Shown in pieces: positions 13,109 to 60,964 of a DNA stretch of 64,000 bases. How positions within the stretch are numbered: the first letter of the stretch is position 1; each line of letters begins with the position of its first letter. A program made the translations under genes and the position numbers. The DNA is from Emticicia oligotrophica DSM 17448 (GTDB taxonomy: Bacteria > Bacteroidota > Bacteroidia > Cytophagales > Spirosomataceae): NCBI RefSeq assembly GCF_000263195.1, contig NC_018748.1, positions 1,798,001 to 1,862,000 of the forward strand, given 5' to 3'. The notes beneath the pieces were generated by a model that made no database searches, was not told the DNA's origin, and worked only from the letters and a program-made list of their open reading frames with translations.

Positions 13109-14533
13109 TTATCGGCTTGATTCCATCATAGAAAGGAGTTGGTCTAACTCATATTCTAGAACTTTTCCATTTTGACGGAGTTTCTTCACATCTTGTAACT
13201 CAATACCATTTCGAACATAAGTTGGAGTTGTATTTAAAGCTGGGTTTCGGTAACCTTCACGCATAAATCTTTGAATCATCGCTCTGATTTGCTCCATTGG
13301 GTCTTTTTGCTCAACTTTTGGCTCAAGTTGCTCAATAAAATTCGGATTCGGCGACTCTTCCGAAGGATATTGTGTACTACTTGCACTTCCTGTTGCCACA
13401 ACTTGCGGTGTTGGTGGTGTTGAAGAGGCTGCTGTAGCTACTGCAAGCGGAACTGCATTAGAAGCTGTTGCCGTAGGGCCAGCCACATGCATTGGTCTTA
13501 CAACCTCCATCACAGGCGGTTGAGGAATATCAATTTCAAATGGCGGTGGTACATTTTCATAACCTGCTGCAACGATTGTTACGCGTACTTTTTTACCCAA
13601 GTTTTTATCAATCGCAAAACCGTGCTTAAACAAACGAGCTTTAGTTTGAATTTGGCTTTCAACAAACTTTGTTACTAAAGTTTGGTCAGAAAGCTTGATT
13701 TTATGTTCAGGGCTATAAGCAATACTTAACAAGACTCTTTGGGCACCATTAATGTCATTGCTTTCTAATAATGGCGAAGAAAGAGCCAATTTAATTGCTT
13801 CTTCTGCACGGCGTTCGCCCTCTGCTTCGGCAGTACCCATAACAGCTTGTCCTGCATTACCCAATACCTTTTTCACATCAGCAAAGTCAAGGTTAATAAT
13901 ACCCGGACGAGTAATAAGTTCGGCAATACTTTTCACGCCATTAGCCAATACATCATCAGCCTTTGCATAAGCCTCTTCTATATCCATATCACCAAAAGTT
14001 TGCTCTAAACGCTCATTTTTGATGATAAGTACGGTATCGCTACATTTTTTTAACTCTTCAATACCCGCACGAGCTTGAAGAATTTTATCTTCTCCTTCAA
14101 AAGTAAATGGGTCAGTTACCACTGCAACTGTCAGTAATTTCATTTCACGTGCAATACGTGCAATTACTGGTGCTGCACCTGTACCCGTACCACCGCCCAT
14201 ACCAGCCGTGATGAATACCATCTCCGTTGGTTCTTTGAGCATTTCTCTGATAGCTTTTTCGCTTTCTTCGGCTGCCTTTCTTCCCATTTCTGGTTCAGTT
14301 CCAGCACCTAAACCTTTGGTTAGCTCAATACCAATTTGTAAACGTTTTATTTCAGGCGAAGCAGATTCGAGTGCTTGTTGGTCTGTATTACAAATTACCA
14401 AGCCTATATCACTTACACCCATGTTGTGCATGTGTTTAACAGCATTACAGCCAGCTCCACCTACACCAATTACCTTGATTATATTCTTGAACTTATTCTT
14501 TGAAACGAGTTCGTATTCTGGTTCTTCTGACAT
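13109..14533 (-). CDS. ftsZ: Cell division protein FtsZ
   Basis: FtsZ is the tubulin-like GTPase that forms the division ring. The 474 residues include the N-terminal IKVIGVGGAGCNAVKHM and the GTP-binding signature GMGGGTGTGAAPVIA. The T7 loop region INLDFADVKKVL follows. After about residue 335 comes a proline-, alanine- and serine-rich linker, then a C-terminal segment from about 400 to 470. The gene is last in the minus-strand division cluster, 80 bp after ftsA, and ends at a strong shared terminator. Confidence 0.97.
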   Translation of the reverse strand: MSEEPEYELVSKNKFKNIIKVIGVGGAGCNAVKHMHNMGVSDIGLVICNTDQQALESASPEIKRLQIGIELTKGLGAGTEPEMGRKAAEESEKAIREMLKEPTEMVFITAGMGGGTGTGAAPVIARIAREMKLLTVAVVTDPFTFEGEDKILQARAGIEELKKCSDTVLIIKNERLEQTFGDMDIEEAYAKADDVLANGVKSIAELITRPGIINLDFADVKKVLGNAGQAVMGTAEAEGERRAEEAIKLALSSPLLESNDINGAQRVLLSIAYSPEHKIKLSDQTLVTKFVESQIQTKARLFKHGFAIDKNLGKKVRVTIVAAGYENVPPPFEIDIPQPPVMEVVRPMHVAGPTATASNAVPLAVATAASSTPPTPQVVATGSASSTQYPSEESPNPNFIEQLEPKVEQKDPMEQIRAMIQRFMREGYRNPALNTTPTYVRNGIELQDVKKLRQNGKVLEYELDQLLSMMESSR

Positions 14534-14613: not shown

Positions 14614-16026
14614 TTATGTATAACCCTTATCGTCGCCTAAGTCATTTTTTGAAGAATTCATTTGGCGTTTTAACCATCCAAATAATCCTCCACTTGTTTG
14701 GGGTTCTTCTGCTTGCGGTGGTTCTACTTCTTTATGACGACCACCATTCAATGGTTCGATACCGTTTAAGTAAATATGTGTTTGACTGTCTGGAATTTCT
14801 CCCCAAATAACTTCTTGTGGTACACGCTCATCTAATGGCAAAAATCCTGATAATACCAAGCCCAATACAGTTGCGTATTTGGGGTCAACGACTTTACTTA
14901 GGGCACTTTCACCAATATTTCTCATATTATTGCCTACCCTTACATTCATGCCCTCAGTTACTTGATAAAAGACATCTTTTATCATACGAATATTAGCCGT
15001 ACCGCCAGTCAGCACAACACCACTAATCAGTTGCCCATCATAGCCTGAATGTATAATTTCGGCCATTACCATTGCTGCAATTTCTTTGAGGCGTTCTTCG
15101 ATGATAACGCTTACATTTTTAGCAACGATTTCTTTATCGGGTAAACCTTCGACACCTGGTATCTTAATGATATCGTTTTTACCAACTTCTGCGGGTGGCA
15201 CATCACCAACAATGAGTTTGAGCTTTTCGGCGTGGTCGGGCAAAATTTGAAACGCCTTTACGAGGTCATTCGTAATGCTTCGACCAGCAAATGGAATAAC
15301 AGAGATATGACGAAGCCCACTTTCATGAAAAATGGCAACTTCTGTGGTATCTCCTCCAATATTTACAACAGCCACACCTAATTTTCTATCTACCTCCTGC
15401 AATACCGACATGGCATCGGCAAGCGGTGAAAACAATGTATGTACGATTTTTAGTGGAATAAATCTCTTATTATCTTGAATCTTAACACCCACACTTTCGA
15501 TTGTTTGGCGAAGAGCGATGTGTGGGTCATTGGGTGTTGAAATCAAGAAAAAGTTTCCACCGAGAGTAATACCAAAACGCCCAACTGGATTTTCAGGTAC
15601 TAAAGAACGGTCAATTATAAACTCCTGTGGGAATGTATGTATAATAACATTTCCTGCCGTTGGGCGAAACGATTTTCGAATATCTATTGCTAATTTTTCA
15701 ATTTCCTCACGGCGAATCGTCGTGCGGCTATCATTTCTTGTGATAAAATTTTGGTGTGATTTTCCTTCAACGTACTCCCCCGAAATATTTACGATTACGT
15801 TTTGAATATTAATGTCGGCTTTATCTGATAATTTAGTAAGGATACGGTCAATGTCACGAGCCGTAAACTCTAAATTTACAACCGTGCCATTTGATACTCT
15901 ACCTCTTTGTGTAGGTTCTTCAACCATATCAAGAATTTTTACTTTCCCGATAGAGTCAATAATGCCCGCTACTGCACAAATTTTTGTGCTACCAATATCA
16001 ATGCCTACAATTACACCTTTATTCAT
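14614..16026 (-). CDS. ftsA: Cell division protein FtsA
   Basis: FtsA is the actin-like protein that anchors FtsZ to the membrane. The 470 residues begin VGIDIGSTKICAVAG (phosphate 1 motif) and contain the 1C subdomain. NIGGDTTEVAIFHESGLRH is the phosphate 2 region and VVLTGGTANI the adenosine motif. The C-terminal part has a tryptophan- and lysine-rich amphipathic stretch (GGLFGWLKRQM), likely the membrane-targeting helix, followed by a charged tail. It lies 60 bp after ftsQ and directly before ftsZ. Confidence 0.95.
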   Translation of the reverse strand: MNKGVIVGIDIGSTKICAVAGIIDSIGKVKILDMVEEPTQRGRVSNGTVVNLEFTARDIDRILTKLSDKADINIQNVIVNISGEYVEGKSHQNFITRNDSRTTIRREEIEKLAIDIRKSFRPTAGNVIIHTFPQEFIIDRSLVPENPVGRFGITLGGNFFLISTPNDPHIALRQTIESVGVKIQDNKRFIPLKIVHTLFSPLADAMSVLQEVDRKLGVAVVNIGGDTTEVAIFHESGLRHISVIPFAGRSITNDLVKAFQILPDHAEKLKLIVGDVPPAEVGKNDIIKIPGVEGLPDKEIVAKNVSVIIEERLKEIAAMVMAEIIHSGYDGQLISGVVLTGGTANIRMIKDVFYQVTEGMNVRVGNNMRNIGESALSKVVDPKYATVLGLVLSGFLPLDERVPQEVIWGEIPDSQTHIYLNGIEPLNGGRHKEVEPPQAEEPQTSGGLFGWLKRQMNSSKNDLGDDKGYT

Positions 16027-16086: not shown

Positions 16087-16854
16087 CTATTTACAAACAA
16101 TTTGTCCATCATATTTAACACTTACTGACGAAAAACTATCCCACCCTTTTACTGGTAGGATTTGATTGTAAAATATCTTCAATCTGTTTAATCTATTCTC
16201 AATATTGCTGGGTTCGCCAAACTCAATAATGTGGTTACCCACTAATGGAACAATACTGATGTCTCCATCAGAATTGATGTCCAATTGGGTAAATTGGGCT
16301 TTTAGAAAGGAATCTTCATTAATTAACTTTATAAATTGAAGGTTCTTTTCCTGACGCTTTGCTTTTAAACTTGGCAAATTTCGGAAATATTCACCCGAAA
16401 GCAATAAAATTCTTGCTGAATATCGGTCAGAGAGTGGAAAAAAACTTCCCTCGGCATCAACATACACATCTTCGCGGCCATCTGACATTAAAATTCGGGC
16501 AATCGGAATGTGTTGTTCAACATCAACATGAAGTTTTCCATCTACACCTTTATAGACTTGACAAGATTTTATCTGGCGATTTTTGAGTACACGTTGCTCA
16601 ATTGAGCGGAGGTCGATTTTTTCAAAATGTTTACCTACCAGTTGCTCACTGCCATATTTTGTCACTAAGTTTTCTACATCTTTATTAGTGATGAAATATT
16701 GTTCATCAGCATTTTTAATGTTTACTTCTATTTTTTTGCAGCGGTCTGACGAAAAACTATCTGTCGAAAAAGCAATTAGTAGCGTAATTGCTCCGATGGC
16801 AATTGTGCCAAAGAGAATCTTAGCTATTTTTCCGAAGTTAGTGTTACGAAACAT
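16087..16854 (-). CDS. ftsQ: Cell division protein FtsQ/DivIB
   Basis: It links early and late division proteins in the periplasm. The 255 residues have one membrane helix at about 11-30 (ILFGTIAIGAITLLIAF), then a POTRA-like domain (VEVNIKNADEQYFITNKDVENLV type) and a beta domain. Sequence similarity within this family is low, so the call leans on topology and position directly before ftsA and ftsZ. The length is normal. Confidence 0.85.
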   Translation of the reverse strand: MFRNTNFGKIAKILFGTIAIGAITLLIAFSTDSFSSDRCKKIEVNIKNADEQYFITNKDVENLVTKYGSEQLVGKHFEKIDLRSIEQRVLKNRQIKSCQVYKGVDGKLHVDVEQHIPIARILMSDGREDVYVDAEGSFFPLSDRYSARILLLSGEYFRNLPSLKAKRQEKNLQFIKLINEDSFLKAQFTQLDINSDGDISIVPLVGNHIIEFGEPSNIENRLNRLKIFYNQILPVKGWDSFSSVSVKYDGQIVCK

Positions 16855-16918
16855 TTATTTATGCAAATTAGTATTTTATTAATATTTTCAATCAAATTTT
16901 AATGATTAAACATTTTTT

Positions 16919-17695
16919 TTATAATTGATTAAGAAAATCATTGGGGTTATCAAGCATTTTGAACTCATCGGCGGCTTTAGGTTCTAAATCATTTTTACAA
17001 AGATTCTTAAGTCGTTCAACATCTTTATTCCAACGATAACCATCAAAATACTCCAATCCTTTGTGGTCACGAATTTTATAAAGGGCCGACTGTTTATAAG
17101 CCGTTCCTAAATAAACGTGTTTTAAGGCATTTTCTTTTCCCCATTTAATCACACGCCACATAAGCCATTTGCCAAGCGAATGGCTTCGCATGTATTCTGT
17201 ATTAAAAAAGGCAAACCAATAATGGAGCATCTCTCCTTCAAGCACGGCAAAAACAAAACCGAGAAGCTTGCCTTCAATACTAAATTTAAAGATATGCGTA
17301 CCTGTTTCTCTCGAAAGAATATACTGCCAACGCTCCCAACTCATATTATCATCGCCAATACGTTGCGAAATATATTCTTGACTTAAGTTTACAAACTCAG
17401 CATCGTTTAGGTCAAAATCTGTTTTTTTAATTACATCCAGTGTAATATTAAGTGGCTCTACTAAACGATTTACTCGACGATTTTCTGAAGTATCTTCAAA
17501 ACGGTCTAAATCAACTCTAAGGCTACGAGCCAAATAAAAAATATCGCCATTGATACCTAAATTTCCAGTATATGGTAGAAACCCTTTCTCATAAATTTCT
17601 GATAATTCGGCCTGCGATTCTTTCAAACAATAAATCGCATAATCGAAAGTATAAGTTGAGTAATCTACTCTATTTTCGGAAAAAAATATCTTCAT
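16919..17695 (-). CDS. Arginyl-transferase/GNAT-like protein in the division cluster
   Basis: The likely fold is the acyl-CoA N-acyltransferase type. Of 258 residues, the C-terminal half (about 165-235) resembles the catalytic part of arginyl- or leucyl-tRNA-protein transferases (ATE/Bpt): an HSLGKWLMWRVIKWGKE helix, then VYLGTAYKQSALYK and YFDGYRW. The N-terminal Cys-x2-Cys cluster typical of ATE is not present, although GFLPYTGN followed by RRVNRL recalls that region. Protein tagging is possible but unproven; a general GNAT role is equally open. The gene lies 42 bp after murG and 64 bp before ftsQ, the slot usually held by murC. Confidence 0.55.
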   Translation of the reverse strand: MKIFFSENRVDYSTYTFDYAIYCLKESQAELSEIYEKGFLPYTGNLGINGDIFYLARSLRVDLDRFEDTSENRRVNRLVEPLNITLDVIKKTDFDLNDAEFVNLSQEYISQRIGDDNMSWERWQYILSRETGTHIFKFSIEGKLLGFVFAVLEGEMLHYWFAFFNTEYMRSHSLGKWLMWRVIKWGKENALKHVYLGTAYKQSALYKIRDHKGLEYFDGYRWNKDVERLKNLCKNDLEPKAADEFKMLDNPNDFLNQL

Positions 17696-17737
17696 AATTA
17701 TATATCAAAAGCCCTTCTAATACCTTCGTTTCTTCAA

Positions 17738-18832
17738 CTATTTAATGATTTTCAATACTTCGGCTGCAATTTCCTTTCCTGCCTCAGGTTTGGCTAAAGT
17801 CTTGATATTTTTACTCAATAATTGCATTTCTTGCTTATCATTGGCAAGTTTAACCACATTATCTACCAAAATATCGCGAGCCTCCACGTCTTTTACTAAC
17901 CATGCGGCTTTTACGTTTACCAAACTCAGAGCATTTTGTGTTTGGTGGTCTTCGGCGGCTGTTGGTAATGGAACCAAAATTGATGGCTTTTCTGCTAAGC
18001 ATAATTCCGAAACCGACAAAGCACCTGCACGAGAAACCACTAAATCGGCGGCGGCATAGGCTAAATCCATTTCGTAGATAAAATCTGATACAAATACACG
18101 CTGTGTTTGTAATGATTCAACCCCTTGCTTAGCTTTATTAATAAAAATCTTACCTGTTTGCCAAATTACTTGAAGGTCGTTTGATATTAAATCGTTTAAA
18201 CCTGCAAATATTGCCTCATTGATTGTTCTTGCTCCTTGGCTACCCCCAATTACTAAAAGTGTTTTTCGTTCGGGGTCGAGGCCAAAATGTTTAAATGCTT
18301 GCTCTCTCTTCGAATTCGTTTCAAGAATATCTTTTCTCACTGGGTTTCCCGTCATAATAATTTTTTCTTTCGGGAAAAACTGCTCCATATTAGGGTATGC
18401 CACACATATTTTTTGTGCTTTCTTCGCCACAAATTTATTAGTAACACCCGCAAACGAGTTCTGCTCTTGAATGAGCGTTGGAACACCTAAGAAATTTGCC
18501 ATAATCAGGGTTGGGCCACTGGCATATCCGCCTACACCAATCGCAATATCTGGCTTAAAGTCTTTAATCACTCGATACGTTTTCCAAAGGCTTTTGATTA
18601 GCTTCAGTGGTAATCCTAAATTGGCCAGCATATTCGAGCGGTTAATCCCTGCAATGGGTAAACCGATGATTTTATATCCAGCCTTAGGTACTTTCTCCAT
18701 TTCCATTTTCCCTTCTGCTCCTACAAATAATATTTCATTAGAAGCATCAATAGCTTTTAGCTCATTGGCAATTGCTACTGCCGGATAAATGTGTCCACCC
18801 GTACCGCCACCACTGATGATAATTTTTTTCAT
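17738..18832 (-). CDS. murG: UDP-GlcNAc:undecaprenyl-PP-MurNAc-pentapeptide GlcNAc transferase
   Basis: MurG makes lipid II from lipid I at the inner face of the membrane. The 364 residues begin with the glycine-rich IISGGGTGGHIYPAVAIA, and later show QEQNSFAGVTNKF, VIGGSQGARTINEA and the UDP-sugar binding block VSRAGALSVSELCL followed by LVPLPTAAEDHQ with Q-x2-NA. The gene lies 65 bp after ftsW. The length is normal. Confidence 0.97.
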   Translation of the reverse strand: MKKIIISGGGTGGHIYPAVAIANELKAIDASNEILFVGAEGKMEMEKVPKAGYKIIGLPIAGINRSNMLANLGLPLKLIKSLWKTYRVIKDFKPDIAIGVGGYASGPTLIMANFLGVPTLIQEQNSFAGVTNKFVAKKAQKICVAYPNMEQFFPKEKIIMTGNPVRKDILETNSKREQAFKHFGLDPERKTLLVIGGSQGARTINEAIFAGLNDLISNDLQVIWQTGKIFINKAKQGVESLQTQRVFVSDFIYEMDLAYAAADLVVSRAGALSVSELCLAEKPSILVPLPTAAEDHQTQNALSLVNVKAAWLVKDVEARDILVDNVVKLANDKQEMQLLSKNIKTLAKPEAGKEIAAEVLKIIK

Positions 18833-18897: not shown

Positions 18898-20082
18898 CTA
18901 AGCATTAAGGGCTTTTTCCTTATCATCATATTCGCCTTTCGTTACACTCAATACAATTCCAATAGCTGTTGCGGTAAACAAAATTGAGGTTCCTCCCATA
19001 CTCATCAAAGGAAGTGTTTGCCCTGTTACTGGCCCCAAGCCTACATTGATAAACATGTGAATAAATGCCTGAAACACAATACTAAAGGTAAGCCCCACAC
19101 AAAGAAGCCCTCCGAAAGCTCGTTGTGTATTACTAACATTTTTAAGGCCTCTATAGAGTAACCATAAATACAAACCCATGACAAATATGGCTCCCAACAT
19201 ACCGTATTCTTCAACAATTATTGCATAAATATAGTCTGAGAATGCTTCTGGTAAATAGTTCCGTTGAAAGCTGTTTCCGGGGCCTATTCCAATAATTCCT
19301 CCACGAGCGATTGCAATCATTGCTTGCTCTTTCTGGAAAGCATCATCACGGTCTGGATTTCCTATTTCCTTATCTCGATTAATATCAACATCAATAAATG
19401 CCTCGATACGTTCTAGTACAACCTGACCACGACCAAACTCTACGCCTTTTGAATATAAATAAACACTTATGCCTAAGACTGCAATTAATGCTCCTACAAC
19501 CGCCGCTGCCATTCTGAAAAGGTACTTTCCTGGTACACGTCCCATGTACATAATAAGAAAACAAGTGACACCTAAAATAACCGCCGTTGAGAAATTGGTG
19601 ATTGCCAACATACCACACAGTACCCCACACCAAAAAATCAAACCCATCAGTGTTTTTTGGGTGTATTGTACATTTTGGCGGCGTGCTAACATTGCAGCCA
19701 AATTGGTAATAAGCACCAAACGAACTAAATCGGATGATTGGAACGAAATACCAAAAAGATTAATCCAACGTTTGGTTCCACCAACTGTGGTACCAAATAA
19801 ATACGTATATATTAATAGTACTGGCGTAATCCAAAGTAAAAGTCTTGAAATTCCTGCGTATTTCGTATAGTCAATACGATGAATAAACCATATAACAAAT
19901 AGACCTAATAAAAGGTGACCCGTATGATTAAGTAAGTAGCTTTCGGTATTTCCTCCTGCCTTTTTATAAGCAAGAGCGGTACTGGCACTATAAACAACCA
20001 GCATACTAAATAAAGATAGAAGCACAATGATGAACCAGATTTGCCAGTCACCACGCAATTTGTCTTTCAACCACGTTTCCAT
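18898..20082 (-). CDS. ftsW: Peptidoglycan polymerase FtsW (SEDS family)
   Basis: FtsW polymerises glycan strands from lipid II at the septum. The 394 residues have about ten membrane helices. SEDS signatures visible are the VEFGRGQVVLERIEAF loop, FQKEQAMIAIARGGIIGIGPG, LPEAFSDYIYAIIVEE, and the C-terminal TGQTLPLMSMGGTSIL. It is the first gene of this part of the division cluster; murD, mraY and ftsI are not upstream here. Its leader contains a perfect 17-bp stem-loop (20146-20183) and a small palindrome near the start codon. Confidence 0.95.
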   Translation of the reverse strand: METWLKDKLRGDWQIWFIIVLLSLFSMLVVYSASTALAYKKAGGNTESYLLNHTGHLLLGLFVIWFIHRIDYTKYAGISRLLLWITPVLLIYTYLFGTTVGGTKRWINLFGISFQSSDLVRLVLITNLAAMLARRQNVQYTQKTLMGLIFWCGVLCGMLAITNFSTAVILGVTCFLIMYMGRVPGKYLFRMAAAVVGALIAVLGISVYLYSKGVEFGRGQVVLERIEAFIDVDINRDKEIGNPDRDDAFQKEQAMIAIARGGIIGIGPGNSFQRNYLPEAFSDYIYAIIVEEYGMLGAIFVMGLYLWLLYRGLKNVSNTQRAFGGLLCVGLTFSIVFQAFIHMFINVGLGPVTGQTLPLMSMGGTSILFTATAIGIVLSVTKGEYDDKEKALNA

Positions 20083-47542: not shown

Positions 47543-48025
47543 AATTTAAAGTTAAATATATTATTGGTGTCTATTTAACCTATAAAAACTATTCAATAAA
47601 AAAATAATTGACGTTTACATGTAAAACCCCTGCTCAATAAATTATTCTTAAATGTATTTAACAATTGGGTTTTGTTACTTAAATCAAACTTTTAGATTAA
47701 AAAAATCTGCTTCAAATTTCATACTGGTTATCAATTATTTTTGATAACCAGTGTATCTTACTCCTCTCTTCTCCTACTTTCAATTAATTACAAAATTCAA
47801 ATACGCTAATTTTAGCACATTCCGTGACTTTAATACCTACTGAGTAGATTTGTTCTCTAGTTTCAATAATCGCCCATCATCATACTAAGGTCAATTCAAC
47901 AAGCCTTTTAAAAATATATTTTGATTTTTAAAAAGCCCATTGTGACCTAAACTTCCATACAAGAGTCAAATAAAATCACAAATGTTTATTGATATATGTG
48001 ATTGCCTGATATATACATATTAAAG
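47543..48025. other. 483-bp gap before the toxin locus
   Basis: AT-rich, without a convincing gene. It contains one hairpin (47723-47752) and marks the border between the core gene set and the accessory toxin array. No attachment-site repeat or integrase is seen. Confidence 0.6.
47723..47752. repeat. 12-bp perfect inverted repeat
   Basis: Arms 47723-47734 and 47741-47752 enclose a 6-nt loop. It lies 180 bp after the comM stop and 274 bp before the giant gene. The right side lacks a T run, so terminator or operator is undecided. Confidence 0.4.
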
Positions 48026-51000
48026 ATGACTTTTCCTTACTACAAATCCATCACAAGGCTATTTGGTAGAAGTTTGACTATGGTCTTGTTTCTGCTATCC
48101 ACAAGAGCTTTGAGTCAAAACTACCCCGTTACTTGCACTCCCATTGTCAAGCCGAGCTACACTCTAAAATGGTCGGAGATTAGTACCAGTACCGATATGT
48201 TCAAGGTGCATTTATTACTCAAAGACCTGACCAAACCTTCGGTGGATGTTTATTTAAAAATCCGTTTATCGGGTGTTGGGGTTGATATTCGTACCATAGA
48301 TGGCTTTATTCCAAATCAGACCTTGACACTAATCCCTGGACAACCAAGAATGCTGACCGCCAGTGATTTAGCCGAGTATTTCAATATCTCGAATTTAGTT
48401 GTGGATGGCGTGGATATTAGTGCTTTGTATAATGGTGGACGTTTGCCTGAAGGACTCTACACTTGGACAGTAGAAGCCTACGAAGTTGACCGAAACAGAC
48501 AAGTATCTAATACGGGTATGGCCTTGATGAATGTATTCAAAAACTATCCGCCTATCATCAATATTCCGCAGGATGGAGCGATTCTACCCGTTACAACTCC
48601 CCAAAATGTTTTGTTTTCTTGGACGAGCCGCAGCACGGCATCGTTGAATGCCGCCCAAGGAAAAACCTATAAACTTAGAATCTACCCCCTCAGCGGCGAT
48701 GATGACCCCAATGTAGTTGCCAATAGCGGAATTCAGCCAATTGAAATTACCACTACCAATCCTTATTTTAATTATGGAGCAGGGAATATTCCGCTGGAGA
48801 AAGGAAAACGCTATGCCGTTCAGGTGCAAGAATTAGATGATACGAATGCGGATGATTATGAAAATGAGGGAAAAAGTCAAGTGGTTACTTTTAGCTACGG
48901 CAAGCCCTGCGTAGCCCCCGAAGGTATGGTGATTAATCCAATTGGCAAAGGAAGAGTAGAGTTGACCTGTGAAGCCACTGCCGAAGATGCCGAGACTTAT
49001 CCCATCACGGCTTGGTATAAAACAACCAAGACTTCGATTTGGAATTCTGTACCATTCAATGGTAACAGTGCGGTCATTAGTGGATTGAAAGATAAAACAG
49101 ACTATGAGTTTAAGCTGAGTTCAGCTTGTGGAGATAATACCAACACTATGGCTGCACTTCGTGAAGGAGATATACTCCCTTCGGGAGACCCAAGTACTGA
49201 GCCAGAAATATTTAAGATTGATGATTCGGAGTTTGATGAAGAAGACCCTGAAATGATAGACCCTGCTATTCTTGACCCTTATACGATTGGTGTTGAAATC
49301 AATACCGATGGTACGACAAGACCTGTGGAGACTTTAGATGGTATTTTTAACAAAATTATCAAACCTGAATGCGTGACTAATGCCGATGCTTATGCTGAAT
49401 GTAGTCCTACTCATCCATTCGTTGACTTGCCACCAGTTGATGCCGAAGACCTTCGCTCGCTCAATGTAGGCGATGTATTGGGTATTTACGATTACGCTGT
49501 TTTAGTGACGGCAATTGGTGGCGGCAATACACTTTCAGGGAAGGGGCTTGTAAAGCTACCATTTTTAGATAACTCTTTCATGGCCGTTGAGTTTTCGGGT
49601 ATCAAAGCAAAAAAAGGTGAAGCAGGTACACAAGGCGGCTGTGTATATGAGGTGGGCGATTACTTCCGCACTCGCCCAATCAGCCAAACTGACTTGCAAA
49701 ATGAGCAAGTTAGAACCATTGCCGATATTATCAAACTCACCGAACCTACGGTTTTTCATGGTGATTTAGAAGTAGCCATAAAAAAATACCAAGAAAAAGG
49801 TAGCGAAATAGCGACCAAAGGAACAGTAACCCCACAAGAAAAACAGGATTTACTGACTTATACCAAAGGGGTAGAAGTAGCCATCGGTACTTGGAAAGAT
49901 AAGTTTTCGGAGGTATTTGGTTCGGGTGAAACTGACCCTAAAATAGCCGAAATCATAGGAGATATGACGGCCATCTTGACCCAACTCAATGCCGATAAAC
50001 AAACCATTGAAGGCGGAACGCCGCCCGCAGGAACAAGTTACCCGACCATTCCAGATTTAAAAGCCAAGGTTGATGCTATTATTGAGAAAATAAAGGCATT
50101 ACATCAAGAAAACACCCCTAAACCACCAAGAATACAAAATGTAATTGTCGCTGACATAGGGACTAATCAATCAACTATTGTTTGGGAAGGCGACCCAAGA
50201 TTTACTAAATATGTAATCAGCTACAAAACTCCCAATGGAGGAGAATTAATAGAGACTGTAGATAGTAAAAATAGTTTATACCTTAAAAAACTACAAGAAA
50301 ATAGTAATTACGAGTTTAAAATTGATGCGTACATCGGCAGTAAATTAGGAGATACTTACTTAAATGGAAAATTCAGTACACTTAAAAATATATTGCCCAA
50401 ACCTGAAAATGTTAAAATTGTACAACTTGACAAAAACTCCCTTAAACTATCTTGGGATAAGAATAAGTTACACGAAAGTTATAGATTAGTATATAGAGAT
50501 AAAGTTGGGTTAGAAAAGTTTATTCCAATAGGAAACAGAAATACCATAACATTAGAAGATTTAGATTCCGAACAATTATATGATTATGAATTAGTTGCAG
50601 TGGGTAACAATCTAACAAGTGATGCAACTTTGGGTAATTTTAATACCTGTAAGGCAATTGCAAGAGTACTTTACTACGATAGAACACAGCTCAAAAATAT
50701 TTGGACAACCAACCCCATCTCAATAATTAGTGGGGATGGGATAACATTACAACTAACAGGATGCAGTGGTTCCGTAACTTGGAAGTCATCTACAACCGAT
50801 ATTAATGAATCAAGTCCCACTTTTTGCCCCTCTAAAAGTAGTGTGTATGTCGGCATTTGTGGTAATGATGGGTGTCAATCAGACCCTATTACAGTTAATG
50901 TCACCCAGCCAGAATGTACTACTGAGACCAAACTTACAACTCCCTCCAATATTGTAAAAAAAGGAGACAAAGTTCTCTTATTAAGCTCTTGCCCATATAA

Positions 51001-54000
51001 TGCAACTGGTTCTCTAAGTTTTATAAATGCAAATGGCAATTTTGGGTCTGCCTATTCAGATATGGCAATCAATGGCAAAACTACTTTTATCCTGAGTTGT
51101 ACAACTCAGTATGGTGGTTTTTGTGGATATAATACCACTTACACAAAAACTTGTAAAAGTGAAGTAACGGTAGATGTCTATTTGCCATGTGAAAATTATT
51201 TTGGAGTACCTTTTTCCGTGAGTAGTTCTAAAACAAACAATATAAATATTGGAGAAGAAATTACGCTAAAGGCGACAGGTTGTCCCACTACTGTCAATTG
51301 GAATAATGGAAAAACAGGAACAATAATTACCATTAAACCTACTGAAACCCTTACGTATGTTGCATTATGTAGCAGGACTCCTTTAACACCCTGTGGTGAT
51401 GTAGTTAAATTAAATGTAAATCCATTTAAGATTTTAGCCCAGCCTTTAAAAAACTCATATAAAATTGCTGAAAACATCACACTTACAGCACAAGGTTGTG
51501 GTGATATTGTCAAATGGAGTACAGGAGAAGAAGGAAACTTCATTGTCGTACAACCAGTCACAAATGTTACCTATGAAGCTGTATGTATGGATAAAAAAGC
51601 AACTCAAAACATAAAAATTGATAAGTTTTTAGCTCCAGAAATTGTTTGTGAAGACTTTAAACCTAAAGCTACTCCAACGACTATCTTTAAGGGTGAGTCT
51701 AATACCGTTAAATTAATTGGTGATGGCTGTACAAACGGGAAAGTCATTTGGAAAAACAAAAGTACAGGAACAATAATTAGTAATTTATCACCAACAGATG
51801 CTTCCATAATTTTAAGTAACGCAACTACATTTATTGCTACATGTAATAAAGTAGGATTTTCTCCCTCTGTGATAGAAGTACCGATTAATGCCACATTAAG
51901 AAATTTCCAGTTAACGGCTTCAAAAACACAGATTCCTTATGGAAAAACCCAACCTGTTATCCTTACAACCAGTGGGTGTATTGGTGGAAGTGTATTTTGG
52001 TCTGATGGAGAAGCCCAAGGGCAAGCTGTAAGAACGGTAAATGTTAGCCCTCCAAAAACATTTCAAGCTACATGTAAGGGTGAAGACTTTGAGGCTACCA
52101 AAACGGTCACTATTAATGTTCAATTGACGGGTTCTGGTGCTGTATTAGCAGGTACACAAGGCACATGCCCTAAAAATTTTGGTATTAATTTTTATAAAAA
52201 TGCAACCGATAAAAAGCCTTATTATGGCTTTCCTGTCGTAAAACCTGGACAAGAAATAAGGTTGGAGGTGGTGGGTTGTAGTACAACTCCTATCTGGTCT
52301 TGGGATGACCAGTATAGTATTAATACCTCCATAAAAACAAAACAAAATGACCGGGTTACTTATTATACCGTGAAATGTGGCAGTACCTGTTCTGCATTTA
52401 TTGGGGTAACTGCTTTTGATTGTGAAGGTTGGCAGAATACAACAAAAGAGGAATCATGGCCTGTCAATGATATTATTGATTTAGTACCAAATGTTTCATG
52501 TCCAGTTACTGTAAGTTGGTATAAAAAGGAAGGTACAGGTTTTAACTATTATGGAATAGAAGAAAACGAACGAGGTGGCATTGGTGTACGTGTAACTAAT
52601 ACAATAACTACCTATAAAGCAATTTGTAGTATTGATGGGGTCGATTGTTCTTTAAGTTATACAATAAAACCTAAAATTAACGCAACCAATGATGCACCAT
52701 CTGAGACTCCTGTTGCTGGGGGAAGAGTTGCCTATGCAACTACTTCTACTTGCAGCGAAACAAAAATACAACTTAAGCAGGCAATGGCAGGATATATTGC
52801 AGGCCTATTATGTGCCGATATTAATTTGTTAAAAGATAAAGAGGGTAAAATATCTGCTGAAAAAGTAGCACAATTCTTACCAAAACTCGAATCAGGGTTG
52901 AAAACAGTTGCTACTTACCAGCTCCCGGCTAATAAAGAGGCAATAATTAATGCCATAGTAAACGGTAATTCTGATGAATGCGATTTTGGAAATGCAGCCG
53001 AATTATTAGCAAGTACATTCGAAGGAGATATTCTAATAAGCGATTATAAAGAAAAAACAAAGACATCCCCAGAGGTAAATGATAAATTATTACAAGACTA
53101 TCTTGGTAAGAAATACATCATTGACTTACCAGACCCTGATACAAAAACAACTACTAAGAACTATAAAATAGGTAATTATCTGGTAAGCTTTTATGTAGAT
53201 GTGGTAAGGAATACCGCAGGTAATTACATCATAAATGGAAAAGAGTATAAACCTTTAGTTTATGACGGTAGTAACGGTTTTGCGGGCTTTTATGATATTA
53301 ATATTCTACCAAGCATCAAAAAAGATGAAAATGGTAAGTACCTGACCGATGATTTGAATGCCAAAGGTGGTTGGCTTTTGCCTGCGTCTCAATTTTATGA
53401 ATTTAAACCATATCAACCATTTTTAGAGAATACACTCGCCGAATTACAGCCTAATTTCTTAGATTCTTTTGAATCATATTGGAACACTCTACATAAATGT
53501 ACCACAACCCAACTGAGAGCCTATGACAACGGAATAGTGCCTGAGTGTTTTTGGAAAGGAGTTGGCAACCCCAACTTTGCACAATTGGCGGGTGTTATTG
53601 ATGAAACCTATCGGACAGGGGTAAATTTTGGGCAATTTGGCAAATTCGTAATGCCACTTAGTAATATAGACGACCTACTTCGTGATTATCTATTGGGAAT
53701 TACCTGTGAAGACGAGTTGTGGGATAATATCAAGAAAATAGACAAACTCGAAGATGAGATACGCAAGCTTGATTATGATAGTGAGCTTATCAATTTTGTA
53801 GTTGATAAATGGAAAAACGAACAAATAGAGACACTTGCCGAAGACATTAATGCTTGTGAAGAATACATAAAATTCAAGAAAAAAGTACCCATATATGCCG
53901 ATATTGTATTAAACTGGGATAAATGGGCGAGTGGGTTTGATGCACTCCATGCCAATATTGATAAATACGTTGAGACTTTTGCCAAAGATTTAGGTAATGT

Positions 54001-55048
54001 AGGCACGCTAAACGATTTACAGAATTATGCTATCGGCAAGCGGATGTTTGAAGTAGGTAGTATATTTGCTACTGCTGGTGGAGCAAGCCCTGCCGAAGTA
54101 GGAGTAAATACCCTAAAAAAACTCCCTAAGCTGCCTAAAAATATACCTTTACGAGCAATTGAGCATACAGCCACCGAAGTTAAAGTAATTGCCGAAGGCC
54201 AAACTACGAGTTTGTTTACTGTAAGTAAAGAAGGTGTATATACCTCAGAGCGTTGGTTTACAGGAACGGGAGTAACAACGAAGCTCGATGAAGTGACAAA
54301 TGTTCATTTCATGGAAAGAGGCAGTAGCTTTAAAACTGGTACAATTGAATTTGTTGAAGATGCCAGTGGCAATAAATGGCTAAAAGCTTCAACGACTGCC
54401 TCTCGCTATGCCAATTATCCCAATATACAAAAACTTGCAACGCATGTACTTGATGAAGTAGATAATTTAGCAGATGATTTTTTAGTTAAGTTAGAAAGTG
54501 ATTTAACTGGAAATATTGAACTAAAAACCGCTTTTGAAAGCGAGGCTGATTTAGTAGACGTTTGGAAACTTATCAAAGAGCCTAATGCTGAATTAGTTAA
54601 AAAAGTTGGAAAAATAATAAAGACCAGAAAAACAAATCCAACTGAAAGAATAAAAGAACTTGGTAAAGACCTTGATAAAGGTGAGGAGTCAATAATAGAA
54701 GGAGAGGCTGGTTTTGAAATCGAAGAACGATATGGGTACTTTGAAAGATATAAAGCCATAGACAATACAACAAAAGGGGATTGGGTTTCCTTGAGTGGCC
54801 CATACAGAGGAAAAACTTTTGATGAAACAGGTGGTGGAATTGCCGAAATGGCTATTAGCGAATTTGCAAGAAAACCGTCACAAAAAAGAAAATTCTTTGA
54901 ATCGTTGGATATACATTTTATAAAGTCTGATTATGTTGTTTTAAATCTTACTAATATGAAGCGATTGGAACCCACTTTATATACAGAAACAATGGATTAT
55001 ATTATTAATAAATTTGGAACGAATAAACTTATAAATATTACAAAATAA
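48026..55048 (+). CDS. Giant exported polymorphic toxin protein
   Basis: A 2340-residue protein starting at the ATG at 48026 (an upstream TTG frame adds eight residues). It has a signal peptide (about 1-31, LLSTRALSQ). The N-terminal region is beta-rich, and FN3-like domains lie at about 294-370, 700-787 and 791-871. At about 875-1550 come repeated cysteine-containing Ig-like units with a GC-x5-W core (for example LKATGCPTTVNW and LTAQGCGDIVKW). A helical region and a pre-toxin block (about 2075-2115, VHFMERGSSFKTGTIEF) follow. The last 145 residues are the variable tip, with GDWVSLSGPYRGKTFDETG and HFIKSDYVVLNLTNM, somewhat like CdiA-type tRNase tips. The same pre-toxin block starts two downstream orphan toxins. 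No type IX sorting domain or RHS shell is seen, so the export route past the inner membrane is unknown. Toxicity is inferred. Confidence 0.8.
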   Translation: MTFPYYKSITRLFGRSLTMVLFLLSTRALSQNYPVTCTPIVKPSYTLKWSEISTSTDMFKVHLLLKDLTKPSVDVYLKIRLSGVGVDIRTIDGFIPNQTLTLIPGQPRMLTASDLAEYFNISNLVVDGVDISALYNGGRLPEGLYTWTVEAYEVDRNRQVSNTGMALMNVFKNYPPIINIPQDGAILPVTTPQNVLFSWTSRSTASLNAAQGKTYKLRIYPLSGDDDPNVVANSGIQPIEITTTNPYFNYGAGNIPLEKGKRYAVQVQELDDTNADDYENEGKSQVVTFSYGKPCVAPEGMVINPIGKGRVELTCEATAEDAETYPITAWYKTTKTSIWNSVPFNGNSAVISGLKDKTDYEFKLSSACGDNTNTMAALREGDILPSGDPSTEPEIFKIDDSEFDEEDPEMIDPAILDPYTIGVEINTDGTTRPVETLDGIFNKIIKPECVTNADAYAECSPTHPFVDLPPVDAEDLRSLNVGDVLGIYDYAVLVTAIGGGNTLSGKGLVKLPFLDNSFMAVEFSGIKAKKGEAGTQGGCVYEVGDYFRTRPISQTDLQNEQVRTIADIIKLTEPTVFHGDLEVAIKKYQEKGSEIATKGTVTPQEKQDLLTYTKGVEVAIGTWKDKFSEVFGSGETDPKIAEIIGDMTAILTQLNADKQTIEGGTPPAGTSYPTIPDLKAKVDAIIEKIKALHQENTPKPPRIQNVIVADIGTNQSTIVWEGDPRFTKYVISYKTPNGGELIETVDSKNSLYLKKLQENSNYEFKIDAYIGSKLGDTYLNGKFSTLKNILPKPENVKIVQLDKNSLKLSWDKNKLHESYRLVYRDKVGLEKFIPIGNRNTITLEDLDSEQLYDYELVAVGNNLTSDATLGNFNTCKAIARVLYYDRTQLKNIWTTNPISIISGDGITLQLTGCSGSVTWKSSTTDINESSPTFCPSKSSVYVGICGNDGCQSDPITVNVTQPECTTETKLTTPSNIVKKGDKVLLLSSCPYNATGSLSFINANGNFGSAYSDMAINGKTTFILSCTTQYGGFCGYNTTYTKTCKSEVTVDVYLPCENYFGVPFSVSSSKTNNINIGEEITLKATGCPTTVNWNNGKTGTIITIKPTETLTYVALCSRTPLTPCGDVVKLNVNPFKILAQPLKNSYKIAENITLTAQGCGDIVKWSTGEEGNFIVVQPVTNVTYEAVCMDKKATQNIKIDKFLAPEIVCEDFKPKATPTTIFKGESNTVKLIGDGCTNGKVIWKNKSTGTIISNLSPTDASIILSNATTFIATCNKVGFSPSVIEVPINATLRNFQLTASKTQIPYGKTQPVILTTSGCIGGSVFWSDGEAQGQAVRTVNVSPPKTFQATCKGEDFEATKTVTINVQLTGSGAVLAGTQGTCPKNFGINFYKNATDKKPYYGFPVVKPGQEIRLEVVGCSTTPIWSWDDQYSINTSIKTKQNDRVTYYTVKCGSTCSAFIGVTAFDCEGWQNTTKEESWPVNDIIDLVPNVSCPVTVSWYKKEGTGFNYYGIEENERGGIGVRVTNTITTYKAICSIDGVDCSLSYTIKPKINATNDAPSETPVAGGRVAYATTSTCSETKIQLKQAMAGYIAGLLCADINLLKDKEGKISAEKVAQFLPKLESGLKTVATYQLPANKEAIINAIVNGNSDECDFGNAAELLASTFEGDILISDYKEKTKTSPEVNDKLLQDYLGKKYIIDLPDPDTKTTTKNYKIGNYLVSFYVDVVRNTAGNYIINGKEYKPLVYDGSNGFAGFYDINILPSIKKDENGKYLTDDLNAKGGWLLPASQFYEFKPYQPFLENTLAELQPNFLDSFESYWNTLHKCTTTQLRAYDNGIVPECFWKGVGNPNFAQLAGVIDETYRTGVNFGQFGKFVMPLSNIDDLLRDYLLGITCEDELWDNIKKIDKLEDEIRKLDYDSELINFVVDKWKNEQIETLAEDINACEEYIKFKKKVPIYADIVLNWDKWASGFDALHANIDKYVETFAKDLGNVGTLNDLQNYAIGKRMFEVGSIFATAGGASPAEVGVNTLKKLPKLPKNIPLRAIEHTATEVKVIAEGQTTSLFTVSKEGVYTSERWFTGTGVTTKLDEVTNVHFMERGSSFKTGTIEFVEDASGNKWLKASTTASRYANYPNIQKLATHVLDEVDNLADDFLVKLESDLTGNIELKTAFESEADLVDVWKLIKEPNAELVKKVGKIIKTRKTNPTERIKELGKDLDKGEESIIEGEAGFEIEERYGYFERYKAIDNTTKGDWVSLSGPYRGKTFDETGGGIAEMAISEFARKPSQKRKFFESLDIHFIKSDYVVLNLTNMKRLEPTLYTETMDYIINKFGTNKLINITK
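54248..54360 (+). repeat. Recombination-type homology block, main copy
   Basis: These 113 bp in the main gene, just before the variable toxin tip, recur at 57400-57512 with two differences. Their last 92 bp recur without difference at 56103-56194. The reading frame is kept in all three. Confidence 0.9.
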
Positions 55049-56093: not shown

Positions 56094-56975
56094 TTGGTTA
56101 AAGGAGTAACAACGAAGCTCGATGAAGTGACAAATGTTCATTTCATGGAAAGAGGCAGTAGCTTTAAAACTGGTACAATTGAATTTGTTGAAGACGCCAA
56201 CGGAGAAAAGTGGCTAAAAGCCACAACAACTGCCTCTCGTTATGCCAATTATCCAAATATTCAGAAATTAGCTACACATGTTTTAGATGAAGTAGATAAT
56301 TTGGCAGATGATTTATTAACTACTTTAGAAACTGATTTGGCTGGAAACAGTGCTTTAAAAACTGCTTTTGAAGAAGATGTGAGTTTGTTGGAGGTATGGA
56401 AGAATGTAAATCACCTAAATAGCTTTAAAGGGGAAAGTAAATTTTTGCAGGCTTTGAAAAAAGTAAAATTAGAATTTAATGACCTAATTGATAAGCATAT
56501 TTTTAGAGGAGATATTAAGAAAACCTTAAATGCAGATGGCACAACAACTTTTGGTAATGCAGGAGGTGGGCATCATATTAGTGCGGTTAATAGTAATCCA
56601 CCATATCGTACAGGAGATATTCAGATAATAAGTACCGCAAATAGTAATACTGCAAATGGGTTAAAAGAATGTAAAATTAGAGTTTATGATGAAGATTTAT
56701 ATTTGTATCATCAACGAAATTATAACCCAAATACCAATGTGCCAGACCCTACTTTTTGGGGTTGGAAAACTAAAAGTAGAAATTCTACTCTGTTTCCTGA
56801 CAGTTGGACAAAAGGTAAAATGCAGGAAGAAATTGCTTTAGCTTGGTCTAATAAAGGTAGTGCTACCTCAATCGGTAATGGTGCTTATGTATATGAGGGG
56901 GTTTGCTCTGAAGGGTTTAAGATTCAATTTTTAGAACGTAATGGCGTAATAGAAACCATATTTCCTATACTATGA
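56094..56975 (+). CDS. Orphan EndoU-family toxin cassette
   Basis: This is an orphan C-terminal toxin module without signal peptide or shell. The homology block with the main gene begins at 56103; the TTG start at 56094 is nominal and no good start codon precedes it, so it may be silent until recombined. Residues about 1-100 are the pre-toxin part. Residues about 133-293 look like a bacterial EndoU RNase: HIFRGDIKKTL, GGGHHISAVN with paired histidines, WGWKTK with a lysine, STLFPDSWTKGKMQEEI and a final GVIETIFP. EndoU toxins cleave RNA in target cells. The stop overlaps the next gene by 4 bp. Confidence 0.8.
   Translation: MVKGVTTKLDEVTNVHFMERGSSFKTGTIEFVEDANGEKWLKATTTASRYANYPNIQKLATHVLDEVDNLADDLLTTLETDLAGNSALKTAFEEDVSLLEVWKNVNHLNSFKGESKFLQALKKVKLEFNDLIDKHIFRGDIKKTLNADGTTTFGNAGGGHHISAVNSNPPYRTGDIQIISTANSNTANGLKECKIRVYDEDLYLYHQRNYNPNTNVPDPTFWGWKTKSRNSTLFPDSWTKGKMQEEIALAWSNKGSATSIGNGAYVYEGVCSEGFKIQFLERNGVIETIFPIL
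56103..56194 (+). repeat. Recombination-type homology block, EndoU cassette
   Basis: These 92 bp are identical to 54269-54360 of the main toxin gene and in the same frame. Upstream of 56103 the similarity stops abruptly; downstream it decays. Confidence 0.9.
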
Positions 56976-57399: not shown

Positions 57400-57512
57400 G
57401 AGCGTTGGTTTACAGGAACAGGAGCAACAACGAAGCTCGATGAAGTGACAAATGTTCATTTCATGGAAAGAGGCAGTAGCTTTAAAACTGGTACAATTGA
57501 ATTTGTTGAAGA
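57400..57512 (+). repeat. Recombination-type homology block, nuclease cassette
   Basis: These 113 bp differ from 54248-54360 at two positions. They encode the end of the pre-toxin region in frame with the downstream orphan toxin. Confidence 0.9.
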
Positions 57513-58275
57513 TACCAACGGAGAAAAGTGGCTAAAAGGAACAACAACAGCCTCTCGTTATGCAAATTACCCCAATATTCAGAAATTAGCTACGCATGTT
57601 TTAGATGAGTTAGATAGATTATTATGGGATGATGCAATTTTAAGTAGCTTAGAAGCGGATTTAGGCAAATCCACTTTAAAACAAGCACTTGAAGGAGATT
57701 TAGATTTACTATATTTATGGCAAACAAGTAAACAGACAACGCTTGCAAATTTAACATTATTAAAAAATCAGTTACAAAAAATAGGTTATTCAGATTTTAA
57801 AACAATTGATTTTCTAAAAAATGCCGATGGTACTTATTATAGTAATAAACTTATTTATGCTGACCCAGCCACAACTGTAGAGAAAATAAATATAGGTTCT
57901 CCTAATGAATTAGCATTTTTAGAGGACATATGTAATAAATATGGAACAAAAGCCTATACCCCTGTAAGTACTAAGCAGGCAGCAGTTGACGGAATTTTGG
58001 TAATAGATAGTAAATTTATACAGTTGAAAACTACCAATTCGGGAAAATGGATTACTCGGATAAATGATGCCTATGCTTCTGTAAATAATGTTGGTCTCAA
58101 AAATGTAAATCTCTTTGTAGAAATAAATGATATGACTGTTGCACAGATTACATATGAGTGGCAAAGAAAAACGTATCAACCCTTTGCGAAGCTAAAGAAT
58201 GATGGTACAATTTCTAAACTCACTCTAAAGGCTACGGATGGCTGGGTAGATTTAGATTTAACTTTATTGAAATAA
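57445..58275 (+). CDS. Orphan toxin cassette, nuclease-like tip
   Basis: The frame is open from 57394, with a nominal GTG at 57445 and an ATG at 57463, so 276 residues is an estimate. Residues about 1-90 follow the pre-toxin sequence of the main protein. The tip (about 100-276) has ELAFLEDICNKYG, then AAVDGILVIDSKFIQLKTT. The D182 and Q193-L-K195 pattern on paired strands recalls PD-(D/E)xK nucleases with Gln in place of Glu. This is a motif-level guess. It has no signal peptide and is probably silent unless recombined into the main gene. Five bases separate it from its likely immunity gene. Confidence 0.6.
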   Translation: MTNVHFMERGSSFKTGTIEFVEDTNGEKWLKGTTTASRYANYPNIQKLATHVLDELDRLLWDDAILSSLEADLGKSTLKQALEGDLDLLYLWQTSKQTTLANLTLLKNQLQKIGYSDFKTIDFLKNADGTYYSNKLIYADPATTVEKINIGSPNELAFLEDICNKYGTKAYTPVSTKQAAVDGILVIDSKFIQLKTTNSGKWITRINDAYASVNNVGLKNVNLFVEINDMTVAQITYEWQRKTYQPFAKLKNDGTISKLTLKATDGWVDLDLTLLK

Positions 58276-60041: not shown

Positions 60042-60964
60042 GAGGTTGTTTAGTATTATAAAAAGATTCCCAAAATAGGTTGAATTTTGTGGTGCGAATC
60101 ATCAAAAAGACCTACAGTGGAAATCTTGAGTAAAAATACGATTGAACAATATATATTACCAAATTTAAGTATTGGTTTACGTGGAAAAGAGTGTGAAATA
60201 GAACAGTTGACAGCTATTGTTTCAGCAATTTTATATCGTTTGAAAACAGGTTGTCAATGGCGTCAACTGCCAGTAAAGCAATTTTTTAATAATAAGGTTT
60301 TAACATGGCGAGGAGTCTATTATCACTTTAATGAATGGGTCAAGGACGGCTCTTGGACAAAAGTTTGGATAAATATTTTAGCATCAAACTATTCATATTT
60401 AGACTTATCTTGTATCCAACTTGATGGTAGTCATACACTTGCCAAACGTGGAGGTGAAGCTGTTGGGTATCAAGGTCGAAAAGCATCAAAAACAACTAAT
60501 TTGCTCTTTTTAGCTGATAATCAGGGACAAATGTTGGCATGTGCCAGCCCACAAGAAGGAAAACACAACGACCTTTATAATATTCAGGAACTCTTTGAAG
60601 AACTGTGTCAAATGCTCATAAAAGCAGGAATTAATCTCAGAGGCCTTTTTCTAAATGCTGATGCTGGATTCGATAGCAAAGAATTTCGTCAAATTTGTAA
60701 AAATAAAGAAATTGAAGCCAATATTGATGTTAATTCTCGAAATAACAAAATAGAAAATCAATCTACTGAATATCAGCATTTTGATGAAGAGTTATACAAA
60801 CGACGAGTACTCATTGAGCACGCTAATGCTTGGATGGATAGTTTCAAAGCATTACTTGTCAGGTTTGAAACGAAAGCAATTAACTGGGTGGCTTTAAATT
60901 TATTGGCATTCTCAGTTCGTTTTTTACGAAAAATTAAATATAAAAGTTAATCCTAAACAAGTTC
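60042..60964 (+). mobile_element. IS5-family insertion sequence, copy 1 (923 bp)
   Basis: The ends are imperfect inverted repeats of about 17 bp (gaggttgtttagtatta at the left, gaacttgtttaggatta read inward from the right; 14 of 17 match). It is flanked by the 3-bp direct repeat aat (60039-60041 and 60965-60967). It carries one transposase gene. A second copy of equal length lies at 61700-62622 in the opposite orientation. Confidence 0.9.
60087..60950 (+). CDS. IS5-family DDE transposase, copy 1
   Basis: It cuts and joins the IS ends. The 287 residues have an N-terminal DUF4096-like helix-turn-helix part with ILYRLKTGCQWRQLP and a DDE core: D113 in QLDGSHT, D192 in NADAGFD, and E244 in the Y-x2-R-x3-E signature YKRRVLIE. 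The nominal start is TTG at 60087, since no ATG precedes the conserved region. It differs from the second copy at residue 75 (Arg here, Gln there). It appears intact. Confidence 0.9.
   Translation: MWCESSKRPTVEILSKNTIEQYILPNLSIGLRGKECEIEQLTAIVSAILYRLKTGCQWRQLPVKQFFNNKVLTWRGVYYHFNEWVKDGSWTKVWINILASNYSYLDLSCIQLDGSHTLAKRGGEAVGYQGRKASKTTNLLFLADNQGQMLACASPQEGKHNDLYNIQELFEELCQMLIKAGINLRGLFLNADAGFDSKEFRQICKNKEIEANIDVNSRNNKIENQSTEYQHFDEELYKRRVLIEHANAWMDSFKALLVRFETKAINWVALNLLAFSVRFLRKIKYKS

Follow-up and report, generated by a model that had tools for sequence, protein, structure and literature searches.

Several described systems resemble the one considered here. The arginyl/leucyl-tRNA-protein transferases ATE1 and bacterial Bpt carry an aminoacyl group from its tRNA to an acidic residue, which they acylate at its amino group, the acceptor being the N-terminal Asp or Glu of a protein. 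Fem ligases (of the FemX, FemA and MurM type) share the GNAT fold, depend on aminoacyl-tRNA and act on peptidoglycan, where they add the cross-link residues to the stem peptide; their family relation is described in PMC2922099. The aminoacyl-tRNA-dependent peptide synthases Sba18 and Sbb17 (PDB naming) were solved with streptothrisamine, a small molecule, and by their titles are not wall enzymes. Among alternative early routes of peptidoglycan synthesis there is the MurD2/MurL pathway of Xanthomonas, where L-Glu is incorporated first and epimerised afterwards (PMC8788868, in excerpt), and the recycling ligase Mpl is a relative of MurC. Here we report on a gene, X, in a 64,000-nucleotide stretch of the genome of Emticicia oligotrophica DSM 17448 (NC_018748.1, positions 1,798,001 to 1,862,000; hereafter the window), which encodes a putative aminoacyl-tRNA-dependent transferase with an ATE/Bpt-like GNAT fold in the slot usually held by murC. 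That X is a gene with a wall role, and that it replaces MurC/MurD, is strongly supported by the evidence set out below.

On the minus strand of the window the genes are ordered ftsW, murG, X, ftsQ, ftsA and ftsZ (Table 1), as an earlier note on this DNA had stated, and the order is confirmed by the open reading frames and by the NCBIfam names of murG and ftsA. The gap from the start of ftsQ to the stop of murG (16854-17738) contains a single long reading frame, that of X, on the same strand as both neighbours, while frame 1 of the plus strand has many stops there. Among relatives, murG-X-ftsQ is seen at 15 of the 18 X loci (a contig end cuts one locus and X lies elsewhere in two), to be compared with murG-murC-ftsQ at 19 of the 30 murC loci taken from relatives that have no X; the other murC loci display murC-ftsQ without murG in the available stretch (six), murG-murC near a contig end (one) or neither (four). 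A later set of 95 X loci, which includes some of the same places, has murG-X-ftsQ in 30, and X is in the slot in two single-contig genomes (G031 and G383). The earlier note had considered that murC might be absent from this spot in all relatives with random genes in its stead. This is not what was seen: visible slots held X or murC, and were empty in G393, G101 and G047; X occupies the exact murC slot and is not random filler. In G393, which is one contig, the cluster reads murE, mraY-like, ftsW, murG, ftsQ, ftsA and ftsZ, with both murD and murC gone from it, and X is found outside the cluster, a few genes after putative SUF iron-sulphur genes (read from sequence).

The slot has not simply lost murC to another place in the E. 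oligotrophica genome (six contigs, 99.99% complete). A search for murC, which the earlier note had proposed, found no gene over the TIGR01082 cut-off, and relocation was rejected on that ground; the four matches to the model are a Mpl-like ligase, which scores best (about 209 versus 335.1 bits), and three genes that read from their sequences as murE-like, murF-like and a murF-alanine racemase-like fusion. The stand-alone murF-like gene and the fusion are both present in this genome (L003, L004). No murD passes the TIGR01087 cut-off either, the best match having an E-value of 1.2e-19 versus E<=2.1e-103 in the 38 relatives over cut-off. Among 58 relatives, 18 carry X (a weak GNAT match in G055 and second weak matches in G003, G008 and G024 are left out of this count), and neither murC nor murD is over cut-off in any of the 18. 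Of the 40 relatives without X, 36 have murC over cut-off, G033 is just under it (331.5 bits) and G023 and G045 have partial genes, while murD exceeds its cut-off in 38 and is fragmented in G033; all told, 39 of the 40 hold both genes, whole or partial, the exception being G047. This exclusion of X and murC/murD has a Fisher p of 4e-14, a value that ignores relatedness.

Wider sampling gave the same picture. Of 390 genomes drawn from the order, 20 carry X, and in none of these was murC matched at E<=1e-78, whereas such a match is present in 336 of the remaining 370 and seven more have a murC over cut-off that is split into two pieces; the last 27 include contig-end fragments, poor drafts and real exceptions. 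A 21st X match, in G060 (46.7 bits), was judged a weak GNAT and not counted, and this genome has murC. A scan of named genomes kept 80 X loci of 87 confirmed stretches, among them loci from Emticicia, Lacihabitans, Jiulongibacter, Saprospiraceae and Flavobacteriaceae, including Lutimonas saemankumensis; Leadbetterellaceae are also among the X lineages. For 50 of these loci the genome was searched for murC (the other 30 were set aside, partly as places tested before), and 49 have none over cut-off. Altogether about 78 distinct X genomes were tested for murC (18 + 11 + 49, one duplicate being recognised), and it is over cut-off in one, G429. An assembly gap as the general cause was rejected since five closed or single-contig X genomes (G003, G031, G383, G393 and G443, in the last of which X is carried by a 2.6-Mb contig titled chromosome) also lack murC. 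As to murD, when Mpl-like and MurC matches are set aside, no match to the murC model in the 50 further X genomes starts before profile position 42, while the murD of relatives typically aligns to this model from about position 6-15. Families f1, f4 and f19 each contain both X genomes and murC genomes, so that the swap or transfer must have occurred more than once; in the X tree, the gene of the window is placed among Emticicia. X was also seen on contigs labelled KSB1 (L116, G429) and Armatimonadaceae (L111, G425), for which misbinning or transfer is possible; murC is over cut-off only in G429.

What kind of protein is X? In Pfam it exceeds the cut-offs of ATE_C (32 versus 25 bits), Acetyltransf_6 (40.9 versus 22) and Acetyltransf_1, and among 40 homologues scanned at E<=0.01 ATE_C is found in 38, Acetyltransf_6 in 39 and a Fem model in none. 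Six NCBIfam arginyltransferase models align from residue 57-59 onward, far under their cut-offs, and the best of them (39.9 versus 205 bits) leaves X short of the equivalog cut-off of bacterial ATE/Bpt (PRK01305 models). CxxC is absent from all 40 homologues, which have at most two Cys within their first 80 residues and so show no sign of the N-terminal cysteine cluster or zinc site; the likeness to the catalytic domain of ATE/Bpt without this cluster, claimed in the earlier note, thus holds. A sequence search found no convincing solved relative. A structure model built from a 68-sequence alignment (mean predicted local distance difference test score, pLDDT, 95.3) is ATE1-like over its whole length and has aminoacyl-tRNA transferases as its best solved matches. 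Among the matches listed by VIA-align, ATE1 structures rank top (Z 13.8-17.9), human ATE1 (8tzv) covering 231 of the 258 residues at Z 17.9 with a root-mean-square deviation of 4.1, and are followed by MprF (Z 11.5-14) and then by FemX and Sbb17/Sba18 (Z about 11). The best 50 Foldseek matches are all aminoacyl-tRNA transferases, L/F-transferase included, or domains of that group. ATE_C in 38 of 40 homologues and the Z of 17.9 to ATE1 together identify an ATE-type GNAT fold. The use of charged tRNA as donor is a prediction from this similarity, and function cannot be read from a shared fold.

Two readings of the fold other than a wall transferase using tRNA have to be weighed here, both raised by the earlier note, of whose interpretation the wall role of a gene in the murC slot is the part that survives. 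X might be a protein-tagging transferase of the N-degron type (ATE/Bpt) tied to division, in line with its fold and its weak profile match to arginyl/leucyl transferases; however, besides lacking CxxC and widely missing the equivalog cut-offs, X tracks the loss of murC (and of murD where tested directly), which tagging would leave unexplained, and does so even far from division genes, as in G393 and in Saprospiraceae- and Flavobacteriaceae-type loci, where none of the genes found near X is a division gene. We regard tagging as very improbable. X might instead be an ordinary acetyl-CoA-dependent GNAT acting on a wall precursor, in line with its two Acetyltransf matches over cut-off; acetyl-CoA GNATs also match the model from Z 11.9 downward (VipF 11.9, NatD 11.3), level with FemX and Sbb17/Sba18. 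They rank under ATE1, however, and R/Q-x-x-G-x-G/A, which we take to be the acetyl-CoA loop motif of GNATs, is absent from residues 151-200 in all 40 homologues. Moreover, acetylation would not compensate for the loss of MurC and MurD, and this reading is hardly credible.

How could such an enzyme stand in for two ligases? Aminoacyl-tRNA transferases acylate an amine, and UDP-N-acetylmuramic acid (UDP-MurNAc) has no free amine; X should therefore be unable to carry out the MurC reaction and able to make the Ala-Glu bond. We infer a route in which X would take an aminoacyl group, most likely L-alanine, off its tRNA and acylate glutamate with it at the amino group. The product would be L-Ala-Glu, whose bond is normally made by MurD, and the chemistry would be the same as that of ATE/Bpt enzymes on an N-terminal Asp or Glu. 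A Mpl-like ligase would then use ATP to join the ready dipeptide to UDP-MurNAc, making the bond normally made by MurC, after which MurE and MurF would continue as usual. The glutamate could be D-Glu supplied by MurI, or L-Glu followed by the action of an L-Ala-D/L-Glu-type epimerase. Since forming the MurNAc-Ala bond requires a ligase to activate the lactyl carboxyl, as Mpl does, this would explain why two ligases are lost jointly and a third is kept. Such an X would differ from ATE1/Bpt in having free glutamate rather than a protein as acceptor and in being tied to murC/murD loss, from Fem ligases in building the stem itself, and from MurD2/MurL in that murC and murD are both gone. That X and a Mpl-like ligase replace MurC and MurD in this manner seems to us probable.

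The retained ligase of E. oligotrophica (C5:2765957-2767090) is MurC-related and is much nearer to 19 ligases that occur alongside MurC where X is absent (487-695 bits) than to MurC itself (30 proteins, 67-107 bits). A Mpl-like ligase is kept in 16 of the 18 X relatives, with a fragment in G035, and in 43 of the 50 further X genomes, G429 having murC instead. The (S/T)AFFDKRSK motif of described Mpl (PMC3060825) is not present as such in the retained ligase, which has a similarly placed, Mpl-like region after EGDEY. Of 19 ligases from genomes without X, 18-19 keep each of three positions in the Mpl-type motif that follows EGDEY and 16 keep its His, while all four positions are changed in 14 of 14 X genomes of family f1; the His alone is changed in those of f4, f8 and f19 (six sequences), nothing is changed in f6, and in 29 other X genomes the His is changed in 16 and unchanged in 13, with few other changes. 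Unlike Mpl, the retained ligase would be biosynthetic and not a recycling enzyme. In vitro rates given for P. arcticus Mpl with UDP-MurNAc in the available part of PMC3060825 are 1.4 per min with L-Ala-D-Glu, 0.7 with L-Ala and 260 with the tripeptide, and the same text reports that a murC mutant is complemented by overexpressed E. coli mpl. This complementation would suit an explanation in which the Mpl-like ligase alone does the job of MurC with free L-Ala, an unrecognised enzyme does that of MurD and X has some other wall role, and so would genomes such as G101, which have neither murC nor X and apparently no murD. Against it stand the position of X in the murC slot, the association of X with the absence of murC (about 77 of 78 X genomes) and of murD (18 of 18 tested directly), and the coexistence of the same kind of ligase with murC in relatives without X, so that we find it quite improbable.

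Outside the slot, X keeps company with other wall genes. At the 54 such loci, which are not mutually independent, mpl lies directly upstream of X in one (L111), mreB is divergent from X in eight and murB lies 2.3-5.6 kb upstream in eleven; four loci (L105, L106, L108 and L113) have the row ldcA-like, epimerase-like, D-Ala-D-Ala carboxypeptidase-like, X, and an epimerase-like gene is at most 1.4 kb from X in nine, adjoining it in L145 and L146. Representatives of MreB, MurB and the PBP4-type carboxypeptidase are over NCBIfam cut-offs; the ldcA-like, epimerase-like and mpl-like genes are under theirs, the ldcA-like ones being over those of Pfam Peptidase_S66. The closest PDB match of the epimerase-like protein of E. 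oligotrophica is 3iji (deposited as muconate cycloisomerase), followed by a dipeptide epimerase. The presence of epimerase-like genes beside X in several lineages would also fit a replacement of MurC/MurD by X with another product or donor, for example L-Ala-L-Glu that is then epimerised, a stem starting with Gly or Ser, or transfer onto D-Glu-diaminopimelate so that Mpl joins a tripeptide, the substrate that Mpl strongly prefers (PMC3060825, in part). In keeping with this, the six X genomes without MurI over cut-off (G001, G002, G003, G008, G040 and G042) all hold an epimerase homologue, which scores 413-426 bits except in G042 (175 bits). However, 8 of 11 genomes with neither X nor MurI over cut-off also hold an epimerase, at 363 bits or more, which makes the epimerase non-discriminating, and MurI is over cut-off in 12 of the 18 X genomes, E. 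oligotrophica having MurI as well. Such a different product or donor appears unlikely. The glutamate racemase is patchy with and without X, being over cut-off in 41 of the 58 relatives.

Returning to the route through Ala-Glu and a Mpl-like ligase, several observations weigh against it. The ligase of E. oligotrophica is under both the Mpl cut-off (156.6 versus 388.7 bits, TIGR01081) and the MurC cut-off (209.3 versus 335.1), which makes its substrate only putative, and with P. arcticus Mpl the tripeptide reacts about 190-fold faster than the dipeptide (PMC3060825, in the part available). A Mpl-like match is missing in one X relative (G006) and in six of the 50 further X genomes, all metagenome-assembled genomes. 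The motif is changed also in 3 of 19 genomes without X, and a switch residue was rejected, as no column cleanly separates the 47 Mpl of X genomes from the 19 others, the best having F in 46 of 47 versus Y in 15 of 19. The epimerase was rejected as a required partner, being widespread with and without X, and none was found at E<=1e-30 in G024, which has X. The scores of acetyl-CoA GNATs level with those of FemX belong here too, as does the scope of the direct murD search, namely the 58 relatives, absence elsewhere being read from murC-model matches. G429 holds X and murC together (336.7 bits, cut-off 335.1); this record, labelled KSB1, may be a mixed bin. Finally, G101 (100% complete, 50 contigs) has neither murC nor X and no murD-like match, and G047 (93%), G179 and G188 (89%) are similar, murD being absent from G047 by direct search too. 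Therefore, either X is not the sole way to live without these ligases or the X of G101 is unrecognisable. A wider profile (A3), run on 27 of the 34 genomes of the draw with neither X nor a murC match at 1e-78 and on G060 and G055, gave only weak GNAT matches, in the latter two, which both have murC; the other seven are the genomes with murC over cut-off in two pieces. In G101 mpl adjoins murB (L269, 8023-10488), which hints at a biosynthetic Mpl and possibly at another way of living without MurC and MurD.

Taken at its widest, the proposal would be that of a repeatedly acquired tRNA-dependent route, in which an ATE-like enzyme builds the first two stem residues off the nucleotide from alanyl-tRNA and glutamate and a repurposed recycling-type ligase links this dipeptide with UDP-MurNAc, so that cells could do without MurC, MurD and, in some species, MurI; for this we see an even chance. 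No description of such a system was found in the listed titles and abstract openings of open-licence papers, which is weak evidence of absence.

Table 1. Genes of the division and wall cluster around X (positions in the window)
Feature	Position	Strand	Place	Basis of name
X	16919..17695	-	murC slot	258-aa GNAT-fold, ATE/Bpt-like putative aminoacyl-tRNA-dependent transferase
murG	17738..18832	-	upstream neighbour, stop 42 nt before X	TIGR01133, 312.8 bits, over cut-off
ftsQ	16087..16854	-	downstream neighbour, start 64 nt after X	position and similarity to genes in the ftsQ place of relatives; no ftsQ model matched in an NCBIfam scan of the product
ftsA	14614..16026	-		TIGR01174 (NCBIfam), 240.4 bits, over cut-off
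ftsZ	13109..14533	-		named from sequence, without family-library scan
ftsW	18898..20082	-		TIGR02614, 258.1 bits, best model, under cut-off 337.5

Elsewhere in the window, a 2348-residue reading frame (48002-55048, plus strand) is followed by two shorter ones (56094-56975 and 57445-58275, plus strand) that repeat part of it and have different C-termini; these look like tip cassettes of a polymorphic protein. Two near-identical, 287-residue transposase-like frames lie in opposite orientation at 60087-60950 (plus strand) and 61714-62577 (minus strand).

MurC and MurD, two of the four enzymes that usually build the stem peptide, are regarded as drug targets and as nearly universal among bacteria with a wall. 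The repeated joint loss of murC and murD, with the exact slot occupied by a gene resembling those of aminoacyl-tRNA transferases, points to a second route to the stem peptide. If this is true, wall synthesis would be coupled to charged-tRNA supply, and the presence of MurC and MurD would fail as a gauge of wall synthesis in many environmental Bacteroidota.

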